Of a DNA stretch of 64,000 bases, positions 1,933-57,039 are shown in pieces (within the stretch, counting starts at the first letter, position 1; each line of letters starts with the position of its first letter). The position numbers and the translations under genes are program-made. Origin of the DNA: Polyangium fumosum (GTDB lineage: Bacteria > Myxococcota_A > Polyangia > Polyangiales > Polyangiaceae); NCBI RefSeq assembly GCF_005144585.1, contig NZ_SSMQ01000003.1, positions 62,001 to 126,000 of the forward strand, given 5' to 3'. The notes beneath the pieces are model-generated. The model worked only from the letters and a program-made list of their open reading frames with translations, was not told the DNA's origin and searched no databases.

Positions 1933-3129
1933 ATGGTGCAATCGCCCTCCACGGTCGTGCTCGGTGACGTTCACCTGACCCGCTCGGTGCCACGGGCCGT
2001 GTCCGAGGATCTCGCCCGCCTGGTCGACGCATACCCGGGCGCGCGAATCGTGTGCGCAGGCGACCTCTTCGATCTCTCGGCCGATTTGCCCCGCTTGCCG
2101 CTGCCGCGCGCCGTCGAGGCGGTGTTCGAGGCGCATCCGGCTGCCAAAGCCGCGTTCGGCCGCCACCTCGCACGAGGAGGCGAGCTCTGGCTTGTGAGCG
2201 GCAACCACGACGCAGCCCTCGCGCTGGCCGATTTCCGGGATGCCCTCGTGACGGCGCTCGATCCGCCGGCCGAGGCGCGCGCGCGGCTGCGCACGACCCC
2301 TTGGTTCTTTCGCGAGGGCGACCTCCACATCGAGCACGGCCACCTCTACGACCCCGACAACGCCCCGGCTCATCCGCTCGTCGCGGGCGAAGCGAGCCTC
2401 GGCGTCCATTTCGTCGAGCAATTCATCGCGCCGACGGGCGCCTATCGCTACCTCAACATGAACGACGAGACGCCCCTCCGGCTCTTCCTCTCCGCGTTCT
2501 CGTTCTACGGCCCGCGCGCGCCCTACGTGATCTATCGTTATTTCCACGCCGCAATCCACGCCATGCTGCGCAGCGGGCGGACGTATCAACGGCGCGCGGA
2601 GGGCGAAGCGCCGCTCGGCGCGGAGGAGGCCGCTCGTTTCATCGCAGAGCTCGGCATTCCGCCCGAGCTCGTGGGCACGATGTTGCCGCTCGGCGCGCGG
2701 CCGACGATGTCGAGCTTGAGCCGGACGTTTTCGCGTCTCTACTTCGATCGGGTGCTGTCCACGCTGGCGATGAGCGCAGGGCTCTCGGCGGCGGCGCTCG
2801 GCCAAAAGCGGGCAGGCGGGGCGGCGTTTTCCATCGGGGCGCTGGCGATGACGCTGAGCTGGGCGCGCGGGCACAACCGTTATGCCGGCTCGGTGGCCGA
2901 GCAGCTCGCCGACGGCGCCACGCGGATCGCGGACGCGACGGGCGCGCGGCTCGTGGTGTTTGGTCACACGCACCGCGAGGCGCTCACGGAGCGATATGCG
3001 AATACGGCGAGCTTCGCGTTTCCGCGCAATGCGCCGGGTCGGCCGTACCTGGAGATCGAGCAGACGTACGGGATGCCGCGGGCGGTACGGCGGTATCTGC
3101 CGATGGAGTTGAAGGAAGCACGCGCCTAG
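1933..3129 (+). CDS. Calcineurin-like metallophosphoesterase
   Basis: A 398-residue protein with all five metallophosphoesterase motifs in order: GDVH at residues 11-14, GDLFD at 43-47, GNHD at 90-93, EHGH near 135, and GHTH at 344-347. These residues form the dinuclear metal centre. The general arrangement resembles LpxH-like UDP-diacylglucosamine hydrolases, but the protein is far longer than the usual 240 residues. The extra sequence lies between EHGH and GHTH and contains a hydrophobic Ala-rich stretch (near LSAAALGQ), so membrane association is possible. The substrate is unknown. The ATG at 1933 follows an AAGAAG-type ribosome site. The TAG stop (3127-3129) lies inside the first bases of the 130-bp palindromic element. 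Confidence 0.8.
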   Translation: MVQSPSTVVLGDVHLTRSVPRAVSEDLARLVDAYPGARIVCAGDLFDLSADLPRLPLPRAVEAVFEAHPAAKAAFGRHLARGGELWLVSGNHDAALALADFRDALVTALDPPAEARARLRTTPWFFREGDLHIEHGHLYDPDNAPAHPLVAGEASLGVHFVEQFIAPTGAYRYLNMNDETPLRLFLSAFSFYGPRAPYVIYRYFHAAIHAMLRSGRTYQRRAEGEAPLGAEEAARFIAELGIPPELVGTMLPLGARPTMSSLSRTFSRLYFDRVLSTLAMSAGLSAAALGQKRAGGAAFSIGALAMTLSWARGHNRYAGSVAEQLADGATRIADATGARLVVFGHTHREALTERYANTASFAFPRNAPGRPYLEIEQTYGMPRAVRRYLPMELKEARA

Positions 3130-3255
3130 CAGCCTGTGGAATTATCGTCGCGAGCGCCCCGAAGCTAGGGCGACGGAGCGAGGAATCCTCAAGGATTTCG
3201 AGCGATGTCGGCCGACGATTCGGGGCGCGCAGCAGATAAGTCCACAGGCTGCTAG
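3126..3255 (+). repeat. 130-bp palindromic MITE-like element, copy 1
   Basis: The element is bounded by perfect 15-bp inverted ends, CTAGCAGCCTGTGGA (3126-3140) and TCCACAGGCTGCTAG (3241-3255). The interior is an imperfect long palindrome folding around AATCCTCAAGGATT, with matched GCGCCCCGAA segments in both arms. It is nearly identical (2 differences in 130 counted by eye) to the reverse complement of 34973-35102. The left CTAG supplies the stop codon of the metallophosphoesterase. On the other side the recO stop is 5 bp beyond the right end. There is no reading frame for a transposase, so it would be non-autonomous. CTAG at both ends could be a 4-bp target duplication of the IS5 type, but it could equally be part of the element. 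Confidence 0.85.
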
Positions 3256-3259
3256 GCAG

Positions 3260-4021
3260 CTACTTCGCCGGACCGGCGTGCGCTTGGATCACGGCCTCCA
3301 CGAGGTCCACCACGATCCGCGTGTCCTCCGCGCGGAGTGCCTCGTCGTCGCCCGCGCAGGCGGCTTCGACGCGCGCTCGGAGGTCCGCCCGCAGCACGAG
3401 TCGCGCTCCGCCGCAAGCGCGACAGACGAGCCCGCCGGCGAGCGCATCCAGACATGCGGGCGCCTCTGCCGGGCACACGCGGCTGCAGCGCACGCATCGA
3501 TCGAGCACCAGCCCGAAGCCCATATCCGAGAGCAGGCGCAACCCTGACGTCGCGAGCTCAGCCTCGGGCGAGCGCGTGGCCGCGGGCGTATCGAGCGCGT
3601 CAAGCAGCTCGTTGACCGTGGCGAAGAGCCCCGGCTCGCGTGTGCCGGGCGGCGCGACCGAGCGGACCCAGCGCAGCGCTCTGCCTGCGGCTTCCAGACG
3701 ATCGAGCGCTGCGACGACGTGCATGCGCGGGTGCGCGATGGAGGCCTCGCCGAGCACGGCCAGGTCTTTTTGTTCGCGCTCTTCGAGCGTCACGCGGAGC
3801 AGGTGCATCGGCTCCAGCGCGACGAGACGCTTGTTCGATCGACGCGCTGAGCGCGCGACGGCCGAAAGGATGCCCCGCGCCTCGGTGAAAAGCGTGACGA
3901 TGAGATCCGCCTCGCCCACGGGGACCCGCCGGACGAGCAGCGCTTCGGTGCGCAGGATCTTTTTGAGGAGGGCGCTGCGGCCCCGGCGACGCCCGCTTGG
4001 CTCGGTCACACCGCCAAGCAT
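3260..4021 (-). CDS. recO: DNA repair protein RecO
   Basis: A 253-residue protein matching the RecO family in length and layout. An N-terminal OB-fold (EALLVRRVPVGEADLIVTLF, about residues 20-60) is followed by a helical region and a four-cysteine zinc site (CVRCSRVCP then CRACGG). RecO loads RecA onto SSB-coated single-stranded DNA with RecR in gap repair. The reading frame extends upstream into the 46-bp repeat array. I chose the ATG at 4021 because upstream residues are repeat-encoded. A GTG six codons earlier is an alternative. Gene order RodZ-like then recO on the same strand suggests co-transcription, with the repeat array between them. Confidence 0.85.
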   Translation of the reverse strand: MLGGVTEPSGRRRGRSALLKKILRTEALLVRRVPVGEADLIVTLFTEARGILSAVARSARRSNKRLVALEPMHLLRVTLEEREQKDLAVLGEASIAHPRMHVVAALDRLEAAGRALRWVRSVAPPGTREPGLFATVNELLDALDTPAATRSPEAELATSGLRLLSDMGFGLVLDRCVRCSRVCPAEAPACLDALAGGLVCRACGGARLVLRADLRARVEAACAGDDEALRAEDTRIVVDLVEAVIQAHAGPAK

Positions 4022-4041: not shown

Positions 4042-4225
4042 CCAGGGGGGTTTGGGGGGCGTCTCGGCGCCCCCCATCGTAACTAGACCAGGGGGGTTTG
4101 GGGGGCGTCTCGGCGCCCCCCATCGTGACTAGACCAGGGGGGTTTGGGGGGCGTCTCGGCGCCCCCCATCGTGACTAGACCAGGGGGGTTTGGGGGGCGT
4201 CTCGGCGCCCCCCATCGTAACTCGA
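4042..4225. repeat. Tandem array, four 46-bp G-tract hairpin units
   Basis: Four nearly identical units start at 4042, 4088, 4134 and 4180. Each contains GGGGGGTTTGGGGGGCG, a TCTCGG loop, CGCCCCCCATCG and then GTGACTAGA or GTAACT. GGGGGGCG and CGCCCCCC form an 8-bp stem with a 6-nt loop. Because 46 is not divisible by 3, successive units shift frame. The first unit met by the RodZ-like gene is translated as YDGGRRDAPQTPL before its stop. The last unit reads the same peptide into the frame of recO. The GGGGGGTTTGGGGG block is shared with the element inside queA. G-runs on one strand might form quadruplexes. Confidence 0.9.
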
Positions 4226-7331: not shown

Positions 7332-8462
7332 ATGGCACGCGACGGATCCAGCACGACGTGGGTGATGCAGGGAGCGGTCATCGTGTCGATCCTGGCGCAC
7401 GCGTCGCTGATCGCCGCCGCCGGGCTGCGGAAGGAGCACGCGCCCGAGGAGTTCGCTCCCCCGGCGGATACGTGGGCCGGGACGACGGCCGCGCCGATTG
7501 GCGGTGAGCTGCACGAGGTGGACGTGACGGGCAGCGAGATCGGAGGCGCGCCCGCCGAACCGCCGGCGCCGGCGCCCGCCCCTGCCCCCGCCGCCCCAAA
7601 CGAGCCGCCCGCGGCCGCCCCGAACGAGCCCGCAGAGCCGCCGCCGCCTCCGCCCAAGGTCGACCCGCCCAAGCCGAAGGCCGATCCGCCCAAGCCGAAG
7701 GCCGATCCGCCCAAGCCCAAGGAGCCCAAGGAGCCCAAGGAGCCCAAAAAGGATCCGGACGAGCCAGTCCCCCCCTCCCACGAGCCAGTCCCCCCCTCCC
7801 ACGAGCCAGTCCCCCCCTCCGAGGAACGATCCCCCAGCTCCGGCGAACGATCCCCCAGCTCCGGCGAACGATCCCCCGTATCCAAAAATACACCCCCCCG
7901 CACCAAAACGACGCCCCCCGTATCCAAAGACACATCCCCCAGCTCCGGGGAACAAAATCCCCCGGGGGGATCGTCTCCGGGAGGCGGGGGCTCGTTCGGC
8001 GCAGAGGGGGCGTCCTCGGTCCGCGACCTGGGGCGGGCGTTCACGCGCGCCCTGCCGATGGCCAGCGGCTCGGACGCGGCATGGGGGAAGCTAGCGATCG
8101 GCAGCGGCGGGTCGATCGAGGTGGCCATGATCATCAGCGAGGAGGGCAAGATCACCGGCGTCGAGCCCCTCGCGCCGAACCCGCCCGCGCACCTGCTCAA
8201 GGCCGCCAAGAACACCATGGCCCTCCTCCGCGGCGGGACCTTCGCGCTGCAAGGCGGCTCGGTCACCGCGGGCAAGCAGATCCTCCGGCTCTCGGTCGAG
8301 CTCAGCGACACGGACGCGCCGGAGGATCCGAGCGGCGCCGGCGCGTTTGGCCTGGCGCATCGCTGGGAAGGCAAACGCGGCGTGGCCTCCTTCACGCAGA
8401 CGAGCGGGCGTCACGTCGAGATCACCGTCGAGTTCCTGCGGGTCGAGCTCACGCGGGGCTAG
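7332..8462 (+). CDS. TonB-like proline-rich membrane protein
   Basis: A 376-residue protein. The N-terminus has one membrane segment (about residues 10-30, WVMQGAVIVSILAHASLIAAA). A long Pro/Lys/Glu/Ser linker (about 75-215) is built from short tandem repeats such as DPPKPKA, EPVPPSH and ERSPSSG. A C-terminal globular part has SIEVAMIISEEGKITGVEPL and resembles the strand-helix pattern of TonB C-terminal domains. This is the architecture of proteins that span the periplasm and couple an inner-membrane ExbB/ExbD motor to the outer membrane. No exbB/exbD is nearby, so TonB function is an inference from layout. A periplasmic scaffold is the alternative. Confidence 0.6.
   Translation: MARDGSSTTWVMQGAVIVSILAHASLIAAAGLRKEHAPEEFAPPADTWAGTTAAPIGGELHEVDVTGSEIGGAPAEPPAPAPAPAPAAPNEPPAAAPNEPAEPPPPPPKVDPPKPKADPPKPKADPPKPKEPKEPKEPKKDPDEPVPPSHEPVPPSHEPVPPSEERSPSSGERSPSSGERSPVSKNTPPRTKTTPPVSKDTSPSSGEQNPPGGSSPGGGGSFGAEGASSVRDLGRAFTRALPMASGSDAAWGKLAIGSGGSIEVAMIISEEGKITGVEPLAPNPPAHLLKAAKNTMALLRGGTFALQGGSVTAGKQILRLSVELSDTDAPEDPSGAGAFGLAHRWEGKRGVASFTQTSGRHVEITVEFLRVELTRG
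7761..7886 (+). repeat. 21-bp in-frame tandem repeats in proline-rich linker
   Basis: Two different 21-bp units sit side by side, each about three times. The first begins GAGCCAGTCCCCCCCTCCC (7761-7820, encoding EPVPPSH). The second begins GAACGATCCCCCAGCTCCG (7824-7886, encoding ERSPSSG, with the third copy diverged). Upstream are shorter repeats of AAGCCGAAGGCCGAT and AAGGAGCCC. Since all units are multiples of three, copy-number change would alter linker length without breaking the frame. Confidence 0.85.
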
Positions 8463-30620: not shown

Positions 30621-31048
30621 GGAGAACCTCCGGGCACAGGAGAGCCAGCAGCACCCGACGGTGCAGCCGGACCAGGCGGGGGTGAGGGGGCAGAGCCCGG
30701 CTCGCCGGGCGGAGCCCCTTCCGTGGAAGGCTCGTCCTGGATCTTCACGACCCAGCGCACCGGGATCACGCGCTCGGGCGGCGGCGGCGTCATGCCGAGC
30801 AGCGTCCGCGCGACCATCTCGACGCGCTGCGGGGTCTCGTAGCTCGCCGCCTCCAGCGAGAGCACGCGCTTCACCTCGCGCAGGCGCCCTTGCTCGGCGC
30901 GCGCGCGGCCGAGCTTGTAGCCGAGGTCCACGATCCTGCCGCGCAGCCCGAGGTGCACGACGAACGCCGCCACGCTCGCGACCACCGCCAGCGACCAGAG
31001 CGCGAGGAACGGCCGCTGCTTCATGCGCTCGCTCATGCGCTCGTTCAT
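30617..31048 (-). CDS. ftsL: Cell division protein FtsL
   Basis: A 143-residue protein at the canonical position between rsmH and ftsI. A short cytoplasmic tail and membrane helix (about 13-33, FLALWSLAVVASVAAFVVHL) are followed by a coiled-coil-prone region (IVDLGYKLGRARAEQGRLREVKRV), as in FtsL. The C-terminal 45 residues are Pro/Gly/Ser-rich and not typical of FtsL, which normally ends soon after the coiled coil. The sequence is poorly conserved as expected, so the call rests on topology and position. Its ATG overlaps the rsmH stop. Confidence 0.85.
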   Translation of the reverse strand: MNERMSERMKQRPFLALWSLAVVASVAAFVVHLGLRGRIVDLGYKLGRARAEQGRLREVKRVLSLEAASYETPQRVEMVARTLLGMTPPPPERVIPVRWVVKIQDEPSTEGAPPGEPGSAPSPPPGPAAPSGAAGSPVPGGSP

Positions 31049-34532: not shown

Positions 34533-34976
34533 ATGTGTGGAGCGGGAGGAGCCTCCTTGGAAACGCCGAACGACGATTGGATCTACATCGGGGCGCACCT
34601 CATCCGCTTCGAGCCCCCGGACATCGTCCTTTGCCGTCCCCTCGGATACATCTCCGCCGCCGACGCGCGCGGCATGCTGGACTTCTGCGAGAAGAGCGCA
34701 GCAGAGCTCGGGAGCCGCATTTTTTATCTGGGGGATTCGTCGCGGATCACGGGGTACGCGATCTCCACGTCGCTCCAGATCTTCAATTCGCGGCCGACGG
34801 AGTACATGCGCGGCACGGCGATCTTCGGCGAGAACTTCCAGCAGCGCGTGCAGAACAGCGCCGTCCTGCGCGCGGCGCGTCGGCTCGGGCTGCCGATGGC
34901 GCGCCTGCCGATCGAGACGTTCCCCGACGAAGCCTCGGCCCGCGCCTGGATCGACGAGCTCCGCCGCAAAGGCTAG
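34533..34976 (+). CDS. STAS/SpoIIAA-like small protein
   Basis: A 147-residue protein with the strand-helix pattern of SpoIIAA-like/STAS-SEC14 proteins: IGAHLIRFEPPDIVLCRPLGYISAADARGM, then SRIFYLGDSSRITGYAIST, and a late TAIFGENFQQRVQNSAVLRAARRLG. These domains bind nucleotides, lipids or partner switches, but the specific role is unknown. The ATG at 34533 has a strong GGAGGAGGGAG site upstream. The TAG stop (34974-34976) is supplied by the CTAG at the left edge of the second 130-bp palindromic element. Confidence 0.6.
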   Translation: MCGAGGASLETPNDDWIYIGAHLIRFEPPDIVLCRPLGYISAADARGMLDFCEKSAAELGSRIFYLGDSSRITGYAISTSLQIFNSRPTEYMRGTAIFGENFQQRVQNSAVLRAARRLGLPMARLPIETFPDEASARAWIDELRRKG

Positions 34977-35102
34977 CAGCCTGTGGACTTATCTGCTGCG
35001 CGCCCCGAATCGTCGGTCGACATCGCTCGAAATCCTTCAGGATTCCTCGCTCCGTCGCCCTAGCTTCGGGGCGCTCGCGACGATAATTCCACAGGCTGCT
35101 AG
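34973..35102 (-). repeat. 130-bp palindromic MITE-like element, copy 2
   Basis: Same element as 3126-3255 in inverted orientation, with 2 differences (CCTGAAGG versus CCTCAAGG at the tip, and GTCGACCGAC versus GTCGGCCGAC). Ends CTAGCAGCCTGTGGA (34973-34987) and TCCACAGGCTGCTAG (35088-35102) are perfect. It fills the whole space between two convergent genes and its two CTAG ends provide both stop codons. As a long palindrome between convergent genes it could serve as a bidirectional terminator. Confidence 0.85.
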
Positions 35103-37809: not shown

Positions 37810-38958
37810 TCACGTCGCGGGCGCGTGCTCGGCCGCGCCCGCTTCGAGCCCCGCGAGCCACTCCTTCGCGAACACGTCGTAGCGGCCCGCGAGGATCGCC
37901 TCCCGCGCCTCGCGCACGAGCGTGCCGTAGAGGTGGAGGTTGTGCACGGTGATGAGCCGCAGCACGAGGAGCTCGCTCGCGATGAAGAGGTGGCGCAGGT
38001 AGGCGCGCGAGTAGCCCGCGGCGCAGGTGGGGCAGGTGCAGGTGGGATCGAGCGGCGAAGGGTCGGTCCGGTAACGCGCCTGCTTGATGACGACCTTGCC
38101 GGTGCGCGTGAGGGCCTGGCCGTTGCGCGCGTTGCGGGTCGGCAGGACGCAGTCGAACATGTCGACGCCCGCGCCGATGGCGCGGACGAGGTCGTAGGGC
38201 GTGCCGACGCCCATGAGGTAGCGCGGTCGCTCGGGATCGAGCGTGTGCGCGACTTCGAGGAGGACCTCGTGCATGCGGGCGATGGGCTCGCCGACGGAGA
38301 AGCCGCCGAGCGCGAGGCCATCGAAGGGCATCGCCGCGAGCTCCTCGGCGTGCGCGCGCCGGAGCGCGGGATCGGTGCCGCCCTGCACGATGCCGAAGAC
38401 CGCCTGATCCGGCCGCTTGGCCGCGAGGCAACGCCGCGCCCAGCGCGTGGTGCGCGCGCACGCGGCCTCGAAGTCGGCGCGCGAGGCGTCGCCGGGCGGG
38501 CAGATGTCGAGCTGCATCGCGATGTCAGCGCCGATCTTCCCCTGCACCTGCATCGCAACTTCGGGCGTGAGGACCTTCTTCGCGCCGTCGAGATGCGAGC
38601 GGAAGACGAACCCGTCTTCACTCGTCTGCCGACGCTCGGCGAGCGAGAAGGCCTGAAAGCCGCCCGAGTCCGTGAGCATCGCGTGGGGCCACTTCGTGAA
38701 GCCGTGCAGGCCCCCGAGCTCGGCGACGACCTCGGGGCCGGGCCGGAGCCAGAGGTGGTAGGTGTTGCCGAGGACGATGCGCGCGCCCGTGGCCGCGACC
38801 TCGTCCGGGCTCATCGTCTTCACGCTGCCCTGCGTGCCGACGGGCATGAACGTCGGCGTGGGGACGTCGCCGTGGGGCGTGGTCAGGACGCCTGCGCGCG
38901 CCGCGCCGCTCGTGGCGAGGGTGCGGAAGGCATATCCGGGCGTGCTCGGCCCGCTCAT
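37810..38958 (-). CDS. tgt: Queuine tRNA-ribosyltransferase Tgt
   Basis: A 382-residue TIM-barrel enzyme that exchanges guanine for preQ1 at position 34 of GUN tRNAs. Marks are PVGTQGSVK, HLWLRPGPEVVAELGG, MLTDSGGFQAFSL (nucleophile region), GIVQGGTD, LGGFSVGEP, MGVGTPYDLV, and the zinc site CTCPTCAAGYSRAYLRHLF. Its ATG overlaps the queA stop by 4 bases. It converges with gspC (3 bp apart). Confidence 0.96.
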   Translation of the reverse strand: MSGPSTPGYAFRTLATSGAARAGVLTTPHGDVPTPTFMPVGTQGSVKTMSPDEVAATGARIVLGNTYHLWLRPGPEVVAELGGLHGFTKWPHAMLTDSGGFQAFSLAERRQTSEDGFVFRSHLDGAKKVLTPEVAMQVQGKIGADIAMQLDICPPGDASRADFEAACARTTRWARRCLAAKRPDQAVFGIVQGGTDPALRRAHAEELAAMPFDGLALGGFSVGEPIARMHEVLLEVAHTLDPERPRYLMGVGTPYDLVRAIGAGVDMFDCVLPTRNARNGQALTRTGKVVIKQARYRTDPSPLDPTCTCPTCAAGYSRAYLRHLFIASELLVLRLITVHNLHLYGTLVREAREAILAGRYDVFAKEWLAGLEAGAAEHAPAT

Positions 38959-40097
38959 CGTTGTCTCCTCAGCAGCATCGCGTCGCCGTACGAGTAAAAC
39001 CGGTACCTCTCCTCGATCGCGACGCGGTAACTCTCGAGGACACGCGGCAGCCCCGCGAAGGCGCCCACGAGCGCGAGGAGCGTGGACTCCGGCAGGTGAA
39101 AATTCGTCAGCAGCCGATCGACCACGCGAAAGCGATAGCCCGGCTGGATCAAGAGGCGCGTCTCCCCTTCCCGCGCGACGACGTGCCCCTCGCGCGTGGG
39201 GTCCGCGGCGCTCTCCAGGGCGCGGACGCTGGTCGTCCCGATCGCCACGATCTCCCGGCCTTTCTGCCTCGCGCGCGCCACGGCGTCGGCTGTCTCGGGC
39301 GGCACGCGGTAGGCCTCGGCGTGCATCGGGTGATCATCGAGATCGGACACTGTCACCGGCTGAAACGTGCCAAGGCCGACGTGCAACGTGACCCGCGCGA
39401 GCTCCATCCCACGCGCGGAAAACCGCTCGATCAGCGGCTCGGTCAGGTGCAGGCCCGCGGTCGGCGCGGCGACGGCGCCGGGCTCGCGGGCGTAGACGGT
39501 CTGGTAGCGCGCGCGGTCCGTGGCGTCGTCGTCGCGACGGATGTACGGCGGGAGCGGGATGTGGCCCGCGGCCTCGACCGCGTCGGGGACGGAGCGGCCC
39601 TCGGGCGAGAAGAGGACGACGTCGAAGAGGCCTCGTTCTCCGCTTGGGGGCTTCGCTCCGGCAAGCGGAGCTGCGCCCCCAAACCCCCCGTCGCGACCTT
39701 CGATCCGCGCGACGAGCGAGGCGGGGCCGTCGATGGTGATCTCGGCGCCTTCGCGGAGAGGCTTGGACGAACGACCGAGGGCGCGCCATCGCTCGGCGGG
39801 GAGGCGCTCGCCGCTTCGATCGACGTACGCGTCGGCGACTTTCCGGACGAGGAAGATCTCGACCTTGCCGCCGCTCGACGCTTTGCGGCCGAGGAGCCGC
39901 GCGGGCAGGACACGCGTGTCGTTGACGACGACGAGCGCGCCTTCGGGCAGGCGGTCGGCGAGGTCGCGGATGAAGGCGTGTTCGAGGCGGCCGGGCGCGT
40001 CGTCGACGACGAGCAGGCGCGCGCTTTCACGATCCGGGGACGGATGCGCGGCGATGAGCTCGGGCGGTAGATCGTAGGCGAGGAGGTCGCGGCGCAC
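38955..40097 (-). CDS. queA: tRNA preQ1 ribosyltransferase-isomerase QueA, with in-frame insertion
   Basis: A 380-residue enzyme that builds the epoxycyclopentane ring of queuosine from SAM. Marks are LLAYDLPPELIAAHP, LVVVNDTRVLPARL, GHIPLPPYIRRDD, YARAEPGAVAAPTAGLH-type block (YAREPGAVAAPTAGLH), VTLHVGLGTFQPV and TNFHLPESTLL. The likely start is GTG at 40097. Residues about 136-155 (GGFGGAAPLAGAKPPSGER) have no counterpart in standard QueA and coincide with a G-tract hairpin repeat that keeps the frame. queA-tgt are translationally coupled. Confidence 0.95.
   Translation of the reverse strand: MRRDLLAYDLPPELIAAHPSPDRESARLLVVDDAPGRLEHAFIRDLADRLPEGALVVVNDTRVLPARLLGRKASSGGKVEIFLVRKVADAYVDRSGERLPAERWRALGRSSKPLREGAEITIDGPASLVARIEGRDGGFGGAAPLAGAKPPSGERGLFDVVLFSPEGRSVPDAVEAAGHIPLPPYIRRDDDATDRARYQTVYAREPGAVAAPTAGLHLTEPLIERFSARGMELARVTLHVGLGTFQPVTVSDLDDHPMHAEAYRVPPETADAVARARQKGREIVAIGTTSVRALESAADPTREGHVVAREGETRLLIQPGYRFRVVDRLLTNFHLPESTLLALVGAFAGLPRVLESYRVAIEERYRFYSYGDAMLLRRQR
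39640..39690 (-). repeat. G-tract hairpin repeat inside queA
   Basis: On the queA coding strand it reads CGGGGGGTTTGGGGGCG, then AGCTCCGCTTGCCGGAGCG, then AAGCCCCCAAGCGG. Outer arms GGGGGC and GCCCCC (39646-39651 and 39675-39680) and inner arms CTCCG and CGGAG (39656-39660 and 39666-39670) give a nested hairpin. It shares the GGGGGGTTTGGGGG block with the 46-bp array and the hairpin centre with the copy at 1818-1857. At 51 bp it adds 17 codons without a stop. Confidence 0.75.
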
Positions 40098-54738: not shown

Positions 54739-57039
54739 ATGAGCAACAAGGCGCAGGCCCCCCGAGGGGGGTGGCGATGGGCGCTGACGGCGGCTTTCAT
54801 GAGCCTCGCCGTGGCCTCTTGGACGGGGTGTAGCGACGGCGGGTCGAACACGACCGCCGGCGAAGGCGGCGCTGGCGCGACCGGCGGCATGGGCGGCATG
54901 GGCGGCGGCAACGGCGGCTCCGGCATGGGCGGCAGCGACCCGTGTCCCGCCGGACAAACCGACTGCGACGGCACGTGCACGCTCACCGATATCGATCCGA
55001 ACAACTGCGGCGCGTGTGGCGCGGCCTGCGCGGCCGGCGAGGTGTGCGCGGCGGGGATGTGCGGCCTGACGTGCGCCGGCGGCACGACGAATTGCGATGG
55101 CAAATGCGTCGACACGAATCTCGACCCGGCGAACTGCGGCACGTGCGGCACGGCCTGCGCGGCCGATGAGGTCTGCTCGGGCGGCCAGTGCGGCACGCAA
55201 TGCGTCGGCGGCACGACGAAGTGCGGGAGCGAGTGCGTCGACACGACCCTCGACCCGGCGAACTGCGGCATGTGCGGCACGGCCTGCGCGGCCGGTGAGG
55301 TCTGCGCAAACGGCCAATGCGGCCTCGCCTGCGTCGGCGGCACGACGAACTGCAATGGCAAGTGCGTCGACATCACGATCGACGCGCTGAACTGCGGCAT
55401 GTGCGGCACGATGTGCCCGGCCGGTCAGGCGTGCTCGAACGGGCAGTGCGCCACGCAATGCGTCGGCGGCACGACGAACTGCAATGGCAAGTGCGTCGAC
55501 ACGACCATCGACCCGACGAACTGCGGCATGTGCGGCACGGCCTGCGCGGCCGGCCAGGTCTGCGCGAACGGCCAATGCGGCCTCGCCTGCGTCGGCGGTA
55601 CGACGAACTGCAATGGCAAGTGTGTCGACACGACGGTCGACCCGCTGAACTGCGGCATGTGCGGCACCGCGTGCCCGAACGGCCAGGTCTGCTCGAATGG
55701 CATGTGCCAGCTCGCCTGCGTCGGCGGCACGGCGAACTGCAATGGCAAGTGCATCGACCTCTCGCTCGACCCGCTGAACTGCGGCGCCTGCGGCGCGGCA
55801 TGTCCCTTCGGCGAGGTCTGCACGGCCGGCAAGTGCCAGCTCAACTGCGTCGGGCAAACGACGAAGTGCGGCTCGCTCTGCGTCGACATCAAGACGGACA
55901 CGGCGAACTGCGGCATGTGCGGCAAGGCCTGCGCTGCCGGTCAGGTTTGCTCGAACGGCGCCTGCCAACTCACCTGCGTCGGCGGCACGACGAAGTGCGG
56001 CAGCACCTGCGTCGACACCAGCACGGACGGCGCGAACTGCGGCATGTGCGGCAAGGTCTGCGCGGCCGGCGAGGTCTGCGCGGCCGGTCAATGCAACCTG
56101 AACTGCGTCGGCGGCACGACGAAGTGCGCGAACACCTGCGTCAACACGAAGAACGACCCGGGCAACTGCGGCGCCTGCGGCAACGTCTGCGCCGCCGGTA
56201 ATGTCTGCACGAACGGCCAGTGCGCCGCGCAATGCGGCCCCGGCACCACGAAGTGCGGCAACGTCTGCGTCGACACGAAGCTCGATCCGAGCAACTGCGG
56301 CACGTGCGGCAACGCCTGCGCGGCCGGCCAGGTCTGCTCGAACGGCACCTGCGGCACGACGTGCGCGGCCGGGACGACGAAGTGCGGCAACGAATGCGTC
56401 GACACGCAGACGGACGAGGCGAACTGCGGCATGTGCGGCACGGCCTGCCTGGCCAGCGTCGCCTGTTATGCCGGCGTCTGCCAGCCGCCCGGTGGCTGCG
56501 ATACGCTCGGGAGCTGCGGCACCTGCCAGCAATGCGCGTTCGACGGTATCTGCTCGGACGAGCTCGCGACCTGCGCGAACAGCCAGGATTGCGTCACGCT
56601 CTTCAACTGCCTGAACCCCGCCAGCGGCGTCTGCGACGCGGCCTGCCAGAACATGTGCGTGCAGCAAACGACGCAGGCCGCCATCGATGAGTACAACAAC
56701 ATCATCGAGTGCCTCTTCTGCCAGGAGTGCGGGACGAGCTGCGGCGTGGACCCGGTGGCGAACGGCTGCCCGGCGAGCTGCGACAACAACCCCAATGGCT
56801 GCGCCGGCTGCTATGCCTGCGCCGCGGGGATGGGCGGCAACTGCGAGGACGACCTGCAGATCTGCCTGAACAACGCCGAATGCGTCGCGCTCGACGACTG
56901 CTTCGTGGCGTGCCCGGCCGGCGATCAGCAGTGCCAGCTCGACTGCGAGCAGGCGCACGTATTCGGCATCGCCGACTACAACGCCATCGTTCTCTGCGGC
57001 TTCTATCAGGAATGCCCGAACGACTGCCTCGGGCCGTGA
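54739..57039 (+). CDS. Cysteine-rich repeat lipoprotein (12 x 43-residue units)
   Basis: A 766-residue secreted protein. Lipobox SWTGC (Cys 31) and a Gly/Met-rich linker precede twelve 43-residue repeats (residues 69-584), each with eight Cys in a fixed pattern around CxGGTTxCxxxCVDTxxDPxNCGxCG, then AxGxVC and NGxC. After that come two other Cys-rich segments (about 585-766, with ECLFCQECGTSCG and GCYACAAGMGGNC). All Cys are probably in disulfides, giving a long, stiff, protease-resistant rod on the cell surface. Such repeats are frequent in myxobacteria. The role could be adhesion or shielding. The start ATG at 54739 follows AGGAAGG. Confidence 0.8.
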   Translation: MSNKAQAPRGGWRWALTAAFMSLAVASWTGCSDGGSNTTAGEGGAGATGGMGGMGGGNGGSGMGGSDPCPAGQTDCDGTCTLTDIDPNNCGACGAACAAGEVCAAGMCGLTCAGGTTNCDGKCVDTNLDPANCGTCGTACAADEVCSGGQCGTQCVGGTTKCGSECVDTTLDPANCGMCGTACAAGEVCANGQCGLACVGGTTNCNGKCVDITIDALNCGMCGTMCPAGQACSNGQCATQCVGGTTNCNGKCVDTTIDPTNCGMCGTACAAGQVCANGQCGLACVGGTTNCNGKCVDTTVDPLNCGMCGTACPNGQVCSNGMCQLACVGGTANCNGKCIDLSLDPLNCGACGAACPFGEVCTAGKCQLNCVGQTTKCGSLCVDIKTDTANCGMCGKACAAGQVCSNGACQLTCVGGTTKCGSTCVDTSTDGANCGMCGKVCAAGEVCAAGQCNLNCVGGTTKCANTCVNTKNDPGNCGACGNVCAAGNVCTNGQCAAQCGPGTTKCGNVCVDTKLDPSNCGTCGNACAAGQVCSNGTCGTTCAAGTTKCGNECVDTQTDEANCGMCGTACLASVACYAGVCQPPGGCDTLGSCGTCQQCAFDGICSDELATCANSQDCVTLFNCLNPASGVCDAACQNMCVQQTTQAAIDEYNNIIECLFCQECGTSCGVDPVANGCPASCDNNPNGCAGCYACAAGMGGNCEDDLQICLNNAECVALDDCFVACPAGDQQCQLDCEQAHVFGIADYNAIVLCGFYQECPNDCLGP
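54943..56490 (+). repeat. Twelve 129-bp coding repeats
   Basis: Twelve back-to-back units of exactly 129 bp. Units 3-6 are most alike at the DNA level, sharing long runs such as TGCGTCGGCGGCACGACGAA, whereas units 1, 7, 8 and 10-12 have drifted. This suggests recent expansion or gene conversion in the middle. No length variation is seen between units. Confidence 0.9.

Follow-up and report, generated by a model that had tools for sequence, protein, structure and literature searches.

The queA gene of Polyangium fumosum carries a 51-bp insertion that is probably one copy of a non-autonomous, mobile hairpin element of ~51 bp confined to a single genus. Palindromic repeats within coding sequence are known above all from the reduced genomes of Rickettsia, with the Rickettsia palindromic elements (RPEs) as the classic case. 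Here the same outcome is met in genomes of 11–13 Mb, and relatives have the same genes in filled and in empty form, so that the way in which an insertion begins, the length and frame that a gene tolerates, and a possible gain of function by the inserts all become testable. Moreover, a Y1 transposase went undetected in three genomes loaded with the repeat, which points to an as yet unknown route for moving short hairpins.

The hairpin repeat in queA

Within the window (i.e., the whole 64,000-nucleotide stretch of DNA analyzed here), queA (QueA, 380 aa) lies on the minus strand at 38955–40097, as identified from its open reading frame, from alignments and from a PF02547 match (7.8e-118) that covers residues 10–379 of a 383-codon open frame. 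The preliminary description of this DNA had placed a 51-bp repeat with a nested hairpin at 39640–39690, and such a repeat is indeed present: the covariance model R3 (built from 25 copies, and the source of all model results reported here) yields a 55-nt match on the minus strand at 39636–39690 (75.3 bits), i.e., 4 nt past 39640, to which the fold and the empty alleles of relatives can be added. The nesting consists of a two-part stem (8 + 6 bp) with an internal loop, the complete order being an unpaired G-run arm (on the gene's strand, GGGGGTTT), an 8-bp outer stem, a 3 x 3 internal loop, a 6-bp inner stem, a 5-nt loop and an unpaired 3′ tail. The outer stem of the repeat pairs a G-run with a C-run, and the consensus tail is approximately AAGCGTnGA. 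An intramolecular G-G-C triplex is conceivable for the G5-T3-G5 arm, purely as an idea.

Folded as RNA, the queA copy reaches −35.8 kcal/mol (z = −2.27, 7 of 200 shuffles equally stable), and as DNA its fold has z = −1.64 (15 of 200 shuffles equally stable), so that folding energy is weak evidence by itself. A 15-mer taken from the head of the element matches the window 10 times (≤2 mismatches, 0.19 expected), once in queA, once in a copy at 1810 and eight times, overlapping, on a 46-bp tandem variant. Genome-wide, this head pattern has 73 matches at ≤1 mismatch (31 exact) vs. 50 for a backward-pattern control, hence it is the structure model, and not the plain head pattern, which is diagnostic of the repeat.

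Filled and empty queA alleles

In a DNA alignment of queA from the six genomes of the genus, filled and empty alleles have the same flanks and differ by 51 bp. Long QueA (383-codon open frames) is found in the P. fumosum genome (G000), G085 and G086, and short QueA (366–367 codons) in G087, G088 and G089; compared with the latter, which are empty, the net gain is exactly 51 bp, i.e., the 17 added codons announced in the preliminary description. As also stated there, the queA frame contains no stop across the insert, and the ORF reads through 17 additional residues at about positions 137–153 of QueA. The G087 and G088 alleles have five bases (CCCGA) at this place that the filled allele replaces. 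The proposed alignment with orthologues finds the segment missing from three of the six congeneric queA genes and from all 30 distant QueA sequences aligned (from 80 fetched relatives); at that place, L042 has an unrelated longer loop. Neither of the two observations named beforehand as arguing against an insertion, i.e., orthologues sharing the segment as non-repeat DNA and a lack of further copies, was made.

Judging from substitution rates, queA with the insert is still evolving under purifying selection, with dN/dS of 0.11 (G000–G085), 0.25 (G000–G086) and 0.19 (G085–G086) between carriers, and of 0.13–0.28 among non-carriers. The insert itself differs between carriers by 0 synonymous and 1–2 nonsynonymous changes, which are too few to weigh much. 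Among the six genes, queA of the carrier G086 is nearest to that of the non-carrier G088 (dS 0.123), and since this pattern is not fully tree-like, one has to allow for loss, for repeated insertion or for an interspecies exchange of alleles.

An AlphaFold2 model of QueA (31 sequences, pLDDT 89.9) places residues 139–154, which make up almost all of the insert, in a loop between strands 128–135 and 158–163 with a pLDDT < 50, a low confidence to be expected where no relatives are available for the insert part. In this model, the 17 residues would extend the turn that connects two beta strands, probably as a disordered loop which the protein tolerates and which has no function of its own.

Copies and distribution of the repeat family

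Searching the 12.98-Mb genome of P. fumosum, as the preliminary description had suggested, returned at least 137 copies of the repeat (R3, E ≤ 0.01, among the best 150 of 24238 first-look candidates), and G085 holds at least 115 (R3, E ≤ 0.01, among the best 150 candidates). One of the 137 falls outside the analyzed loci, leaving 136 copies examined. In 127 aligned copies, standard pairs occupy 96.0% of the pair cells, cells changed on both sides number 103 (vs. 21.9 in shuffles, and 8–11 when the pairing is slid), and compensatory changes are seen at 12 of the 14 stem pairs, the size of this covariation being inflated by the relatedness of the copies (subfamilies) and by an alignment fitted to the structure. 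Neighboring copies less than 200 bp apart are direct, head-to-tail pairs in 12 of 12 cases among the 136 copies, and the ORFs between nearby copies revealed no obvious common gene by coding score, the sole measure used.

As far as strict-filter searches show, the repeat is essentially genus-restricted. Across 183 genomes of the order (E ≤ 1e-6, strict filters), eight had a match, namely the six of the genus, with 29–31 matches among the best 31 candidates each, and two of one other genus, which were the only ones of the other 177 genomes to match, with 1 match each. At the family level and E ≤ 1e-4, six genomes outside the genus had 1–2 matches (best 53 candidates per genome, stricter filters). 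Rfam gave no family match to the repeat at ten loci with E up to 0.1, where it reported only a tRNA elsewhere in L191. The preliminary description knew of no such repeat in myxobacteria, and the literature searched (most subscription journals and all supplements being outside reach) likewise contained no such report; neither “Myxo” nor “Sorangium” occurs in the text of PMC3733652.

In the window, R3 also detects a second, weaker copy at 30676–30728 on the plus strand (44.0 bits, E 3e-05), which adjoins a penicillin-binding-protein-like ORF (named by eye) and stands outside the at least 137 copies counted above, and a third, weaker one at 1810–1865 on the plus strand (43.0 bits), which by the codon test is not in frame inside a gene. 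At 4042–4225 on the plus strand, a short-hairpin variant with the same G-run head and an ATCGT tail is repeated head-to-tail in four near-identical 46-bp copies. Elsewhere, a single copy of this 46-bp variant was seen at L391, and the copy at L389 has lost the inner hairpin, with the G-run/C-run outer stem alone left.

Copies within genes and their reading frame

The repeat is depleted in genes, with 35 of 136 copies in frame within coding sequence compared to 455 of 600 random positions from the same loci. Codon scores were trained on the fetched sequence, and a stricter cut leaves 30 of these 35 copies (hereafter “strong”). As for the number and frame of copies inside genes, raised in the preliminary description, these 30 of 136 use all six frames: antisense 1 (10 copies), sense 1 (6), sense 2 (5), sense 0 (4), antisense 0 (3) and antisense 2 (2). 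Every strong copy is 54–55 nt long, whereas the shorter copies (50–53 nt) are strongly in frame in 0 of 32 cases and weakly in one (Fisher p-value 1.3e-4 with the five weak rows excluded; p-value 5e-4 over 124 clusters, the weak rows being treated as outside). In 64–94% of the 55-nt copies, any given one of the six frames is open.

Host genes of in-frame copies include queA, mutS, pheT, murJ and trmO. Pfam was applied to 22 ORFs with in-frame copies and eight further ORFs (of the seven strong copies found later, one lies in the pheT ORF already included), and matched 20 of the 22 host ORFs with a spanning copy. The copy falls inside the matched stretch in 12 of these: QueA, Fe-ADH, EamA, pseudouridine synthase, MurJ, MutS domain III, DNA polymerase B exonuclease, TrmO, alpha-amylase, a molybdopterin-binding domain, an MrfA/Hrq1-type helicase zinc-binding domain and a pyridine nucleotide oxidoreductase. 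In PheT, a Y-family polymerase and several kinases, it is located between or beside domains. Two ORFs carry two in-frame copies each (L259, 2501–2555 and 4107–4160; L226, 2501–2555 and 2946–3000), and these double-copy ORFs are a 981-codon ORF without a Pfam match and the pheT ORF.

Tests restricted to in-frame copies cannot, by design, show the absence of frame-broken ones, but empty alleles can. At 42 sites, a relative has the empty allele. In 24 of these, coding sequence runs through the site in that relative (≥15 bits on each side), and the filled P. fumosum allele is in frame at all 24; at that cut, the relative shows no such continuous coding at the remaining 18. A first, crude frame test (n = 136) had scored 24 copies as in frame and 12 as shifted, and the ORFs of six of these 12 were put to Pfam. 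Nine of the shifted copies have a typed empty allele, none of it coding through, and as they are among the 18 sites not coding through they look like gene boundaries; the frame claim covers typed sites, with the other three copies outside it. The net gain at the 24 in-frame sites was 51 bp at 13, 54 bp at 10 and 48 bp at one. At the 18 other sites, the gain is still divisible by three in 15 cases, for which reason 51 bp seems to be what an insertion usually yields, beyond what selection would have left behind, an intrinsic length which rests on these 18 sites, several of them near gene starts or ends.

Turnover and target sites

Site searches in G085 and G087 covered 48 of the 136 copies, a non-random choice made of 36 with same-strand coding on both sides and the 12 best others. 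Joined flanks allowed 43 sites to be typed (by automatic calls, some “empty” alleles being remnants), and G085 proved empty at 32 of 40 sites and G087 at 36 of 40. Of the 37 sites for which both relatives could be typed, 26 lack the repeat in either genome (20 of them with an identical net length) and one carries it in both; G085 alone is filled at seven, and G087 alone at three. Since the numbers of copies listed are similar (at least 137 vs. at least 115) despite mostly empty sites, gain and loss are probably both ongoing.

At sites 0, 11 and 42, G000 and G087 have the repeat and G085 has the empty allele, and because these sites and queA are not fully tree-like, some losses, interspecies recombination or repeated insertions must occur. 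Site 42 looks like an in-frame loss in G085, where the empty allele has flanks 98–99% identical to those of G000, G087 being filled. Some G087 alleles scored as empty are remnants: that of site 5 retains the head but not the hairpin, and those of sites 50 and 83 look partial. In G085, site 53 was scored as filled and has an internal deletion.

A target duplication of fixed length was not found: 29 of 42 sites have no overlap, and the 13 overlaps (1–15 bases) resemble those of a swapped-element control. Few target bases are lost (0 or 1 at 28 of 43 scored alleles, 0–2 at most typed alleles). Empty sites bear a same-strand G-run of ≥3 in 43% of 42 cases (control, 19%) and an opposite-strand one in 5% (control, 18%), and the left junction overlaps the element's G-run.

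Candidate mechanisms of insertion

We suggest that a trans-acting enzyme would join or copy the hairpin into DNA, and that the G-run arm of the element may pair at, or extend, a G-run in the target, as the G-run overlap at one junction suggests. A typical insertion would be frame-neutral, with a usual net gain of 51 or 54 bp, also outside continuous coding frames, and with all six frames mostly open. Selection would then purge frame-breaking copies and copies in structured parts, and the survivors would lengthen loops.

One possible, if rather doubtful, form of this scheme is RNA-templated and target-primed, a C-strand transcript ending in C-runs annealing to a nicked target G-run and being copied by a reverse transcriptase (RT) acting in trans. 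The G-run overlap at the left junction, the same-strand target G-runs and the few bases lost would all fit such a route, and RT genes are present in all six genomes of the genus, but so they are in 75 of 108 family genomes, and their presence is thus not discriminating. Truncated copies form no clear class among 16 partial pattern hits, which comprise L389 without the inner hairpin, L391 with the short variant, five loci with some R3 match, and otherwise weak or unrelated hits. R3 has no match at two of the three P. fumosum RT loci and at one G087 RT locus and a weak one (32 bits) near a G085 RT, and Rfam has no match at these loci. More speculatively, and on balance unlikely, the repeat could be a bacterial counterpart of SINEs, i.e., a 51-nt, frame-neutral hairpin copied by a trans enzyme from an RNA (or ssDNA) template into G-run targets, and which, while spreading within one genus, would keep adding loops of ~17 residues to housekeeping proteins, whichever of the six frames is read.

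Movement of a classical REP family on single-stranded DNA by a RAYT or an IS200-type Y1 transposase seems improbable. The short hairpins, their high number and their occurrence within genes do fit REPs as described in PMC3733652, the absence of a fixed target duplication also speaks for this reading, and the P. fumosum genome has one IS200-like Y1 gene. However, this gene (L111, open frame of 152 codons, the sole Y1 match) has no repeat within the surrounding 3.4 kb, and PF01797 has no match in G085, G086 and G087 (a very diverged enzyme could escape), where element numbers are like those of the other genomes among the matches listed. The terminal GTAG of such families is absent, close pairs are direct in 12 of 12 cases, and G085 shows no replication-strand bias, with 51 leading and 51 lagging copies (102 of its 115 matches, tandem neighbors and one partial match excluded, ori set at dnaA), although rearrangements could blur such a bias. 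Together these points strongly weaken the case for a RAYT or IS200-type mobilizer, which we regard as unlikely.

It is more improbable still that the repeat is retained for a job (RNA folding, termination or regulation) and its in-gene copies selected for. The structure is upheld across copies, and some of them sit at gene ends, where in at least one case the upstream frame terminates inside the element, but most typed sites vary between close relatives, copies are rarer in genes than random positions are, the hosts are unrelated genes in which any frame is used, and the substitutions in the queA insert (0 synonymous, 1–2 nonsynonymous), for the little weight they carry, speak against it as well. 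Finally, an old, lineage-specific QueA loop merely resembling the repeat, for which one could cite its occurrence in three of the six congeners, is refuted by the at least 136 other copies elsewhere and by empty alleles with the same flanks.

Comparison with known repeats

We file the mobile hairpin as a REP-like family of coding palindromes without a detectable RAYT, coding palindromes as such being already known. RPEs are described as dispersed palindromes, many of them in frame in unrelated genes (PMC10969869, PMC3733652), ~150 bp long (PMC10969869), and RPE-4 and RPE-6 are CGTC REPs (PMC3733652). The likeness to Rickettsia elements drawn in the preliminary description holds as a similar mode of action, the present repeat being also in frame in many unrelated protein genes (the 30 strong copies of 136), and membership of the RPE family forms no part of what is supported. 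Compared by description only, it differs from RPEs in its net 51 bp, a stem not headed by CGTC, the use of six frames, a majority of copies outside genes, and host genomes of 11–13 Mb.

Among REPs, known within genes of several phyla with repair and tRNA genes among the hosts (PMC3733652), the GTAG type consists of short hairpins with high copy number, intragenic in e.g. O. terrae, whose termini may provide the TAG stop of a flanking gene (PMC3733652). The present repeat, in contrast, has no terminal GTAG (the motif is internal only, inside the outer stem, in 24 of 80 55-nt copies), no Y1/RAYT match in three genomes, no inverted dimers among close pairs, and a longer, two-part stem with a G-run arm. 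For CGTC REPs, PMC3733652 gives intragenic units, no transposase reported, a terminal CGTC, one 8–9-bp stem, a 4–5-nt loop, mostly a CCA tail and mainly head-head dimers. Intragenic units occur here too, and Y1, the transposase class searched, was not found in G085, G086 and G087. In the present repeat, CGTC follows the stem on its 3′ side (in 21 of 80 copies), the stem has 8 + 6 bp, the consensus tail lacks CCA, and close pairs are exclusively direct. MITEs, finally, are non-autonomous and have reported in-frame fusions (PMC10969869) and lengths of 70–300 bp (PMC3733652); the repeat differs from them in lacking a fixed target duplication, in being a single hairpin and not two separated terminal inverted repeats, and in its shorter 51 bp.

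Other repeats in the window

The window includes several other repeats. Positions 3115–3266 and 34973–35102 hold two copies of a ~130-bp repeat in inverted orientation (98% identity, 31.7 kb apart), the first with 32-nt inverted ends (84% complementary); this repeat looks like a separate, MITE-type element. Tandem 21-bp repeats with C-runs, in two related units, occupy 7759–7953, and twelve direct repeats at 54874–56592 are spaced by 129 nt (43 codons if coding) and are 61–83% identical to the reference copy.
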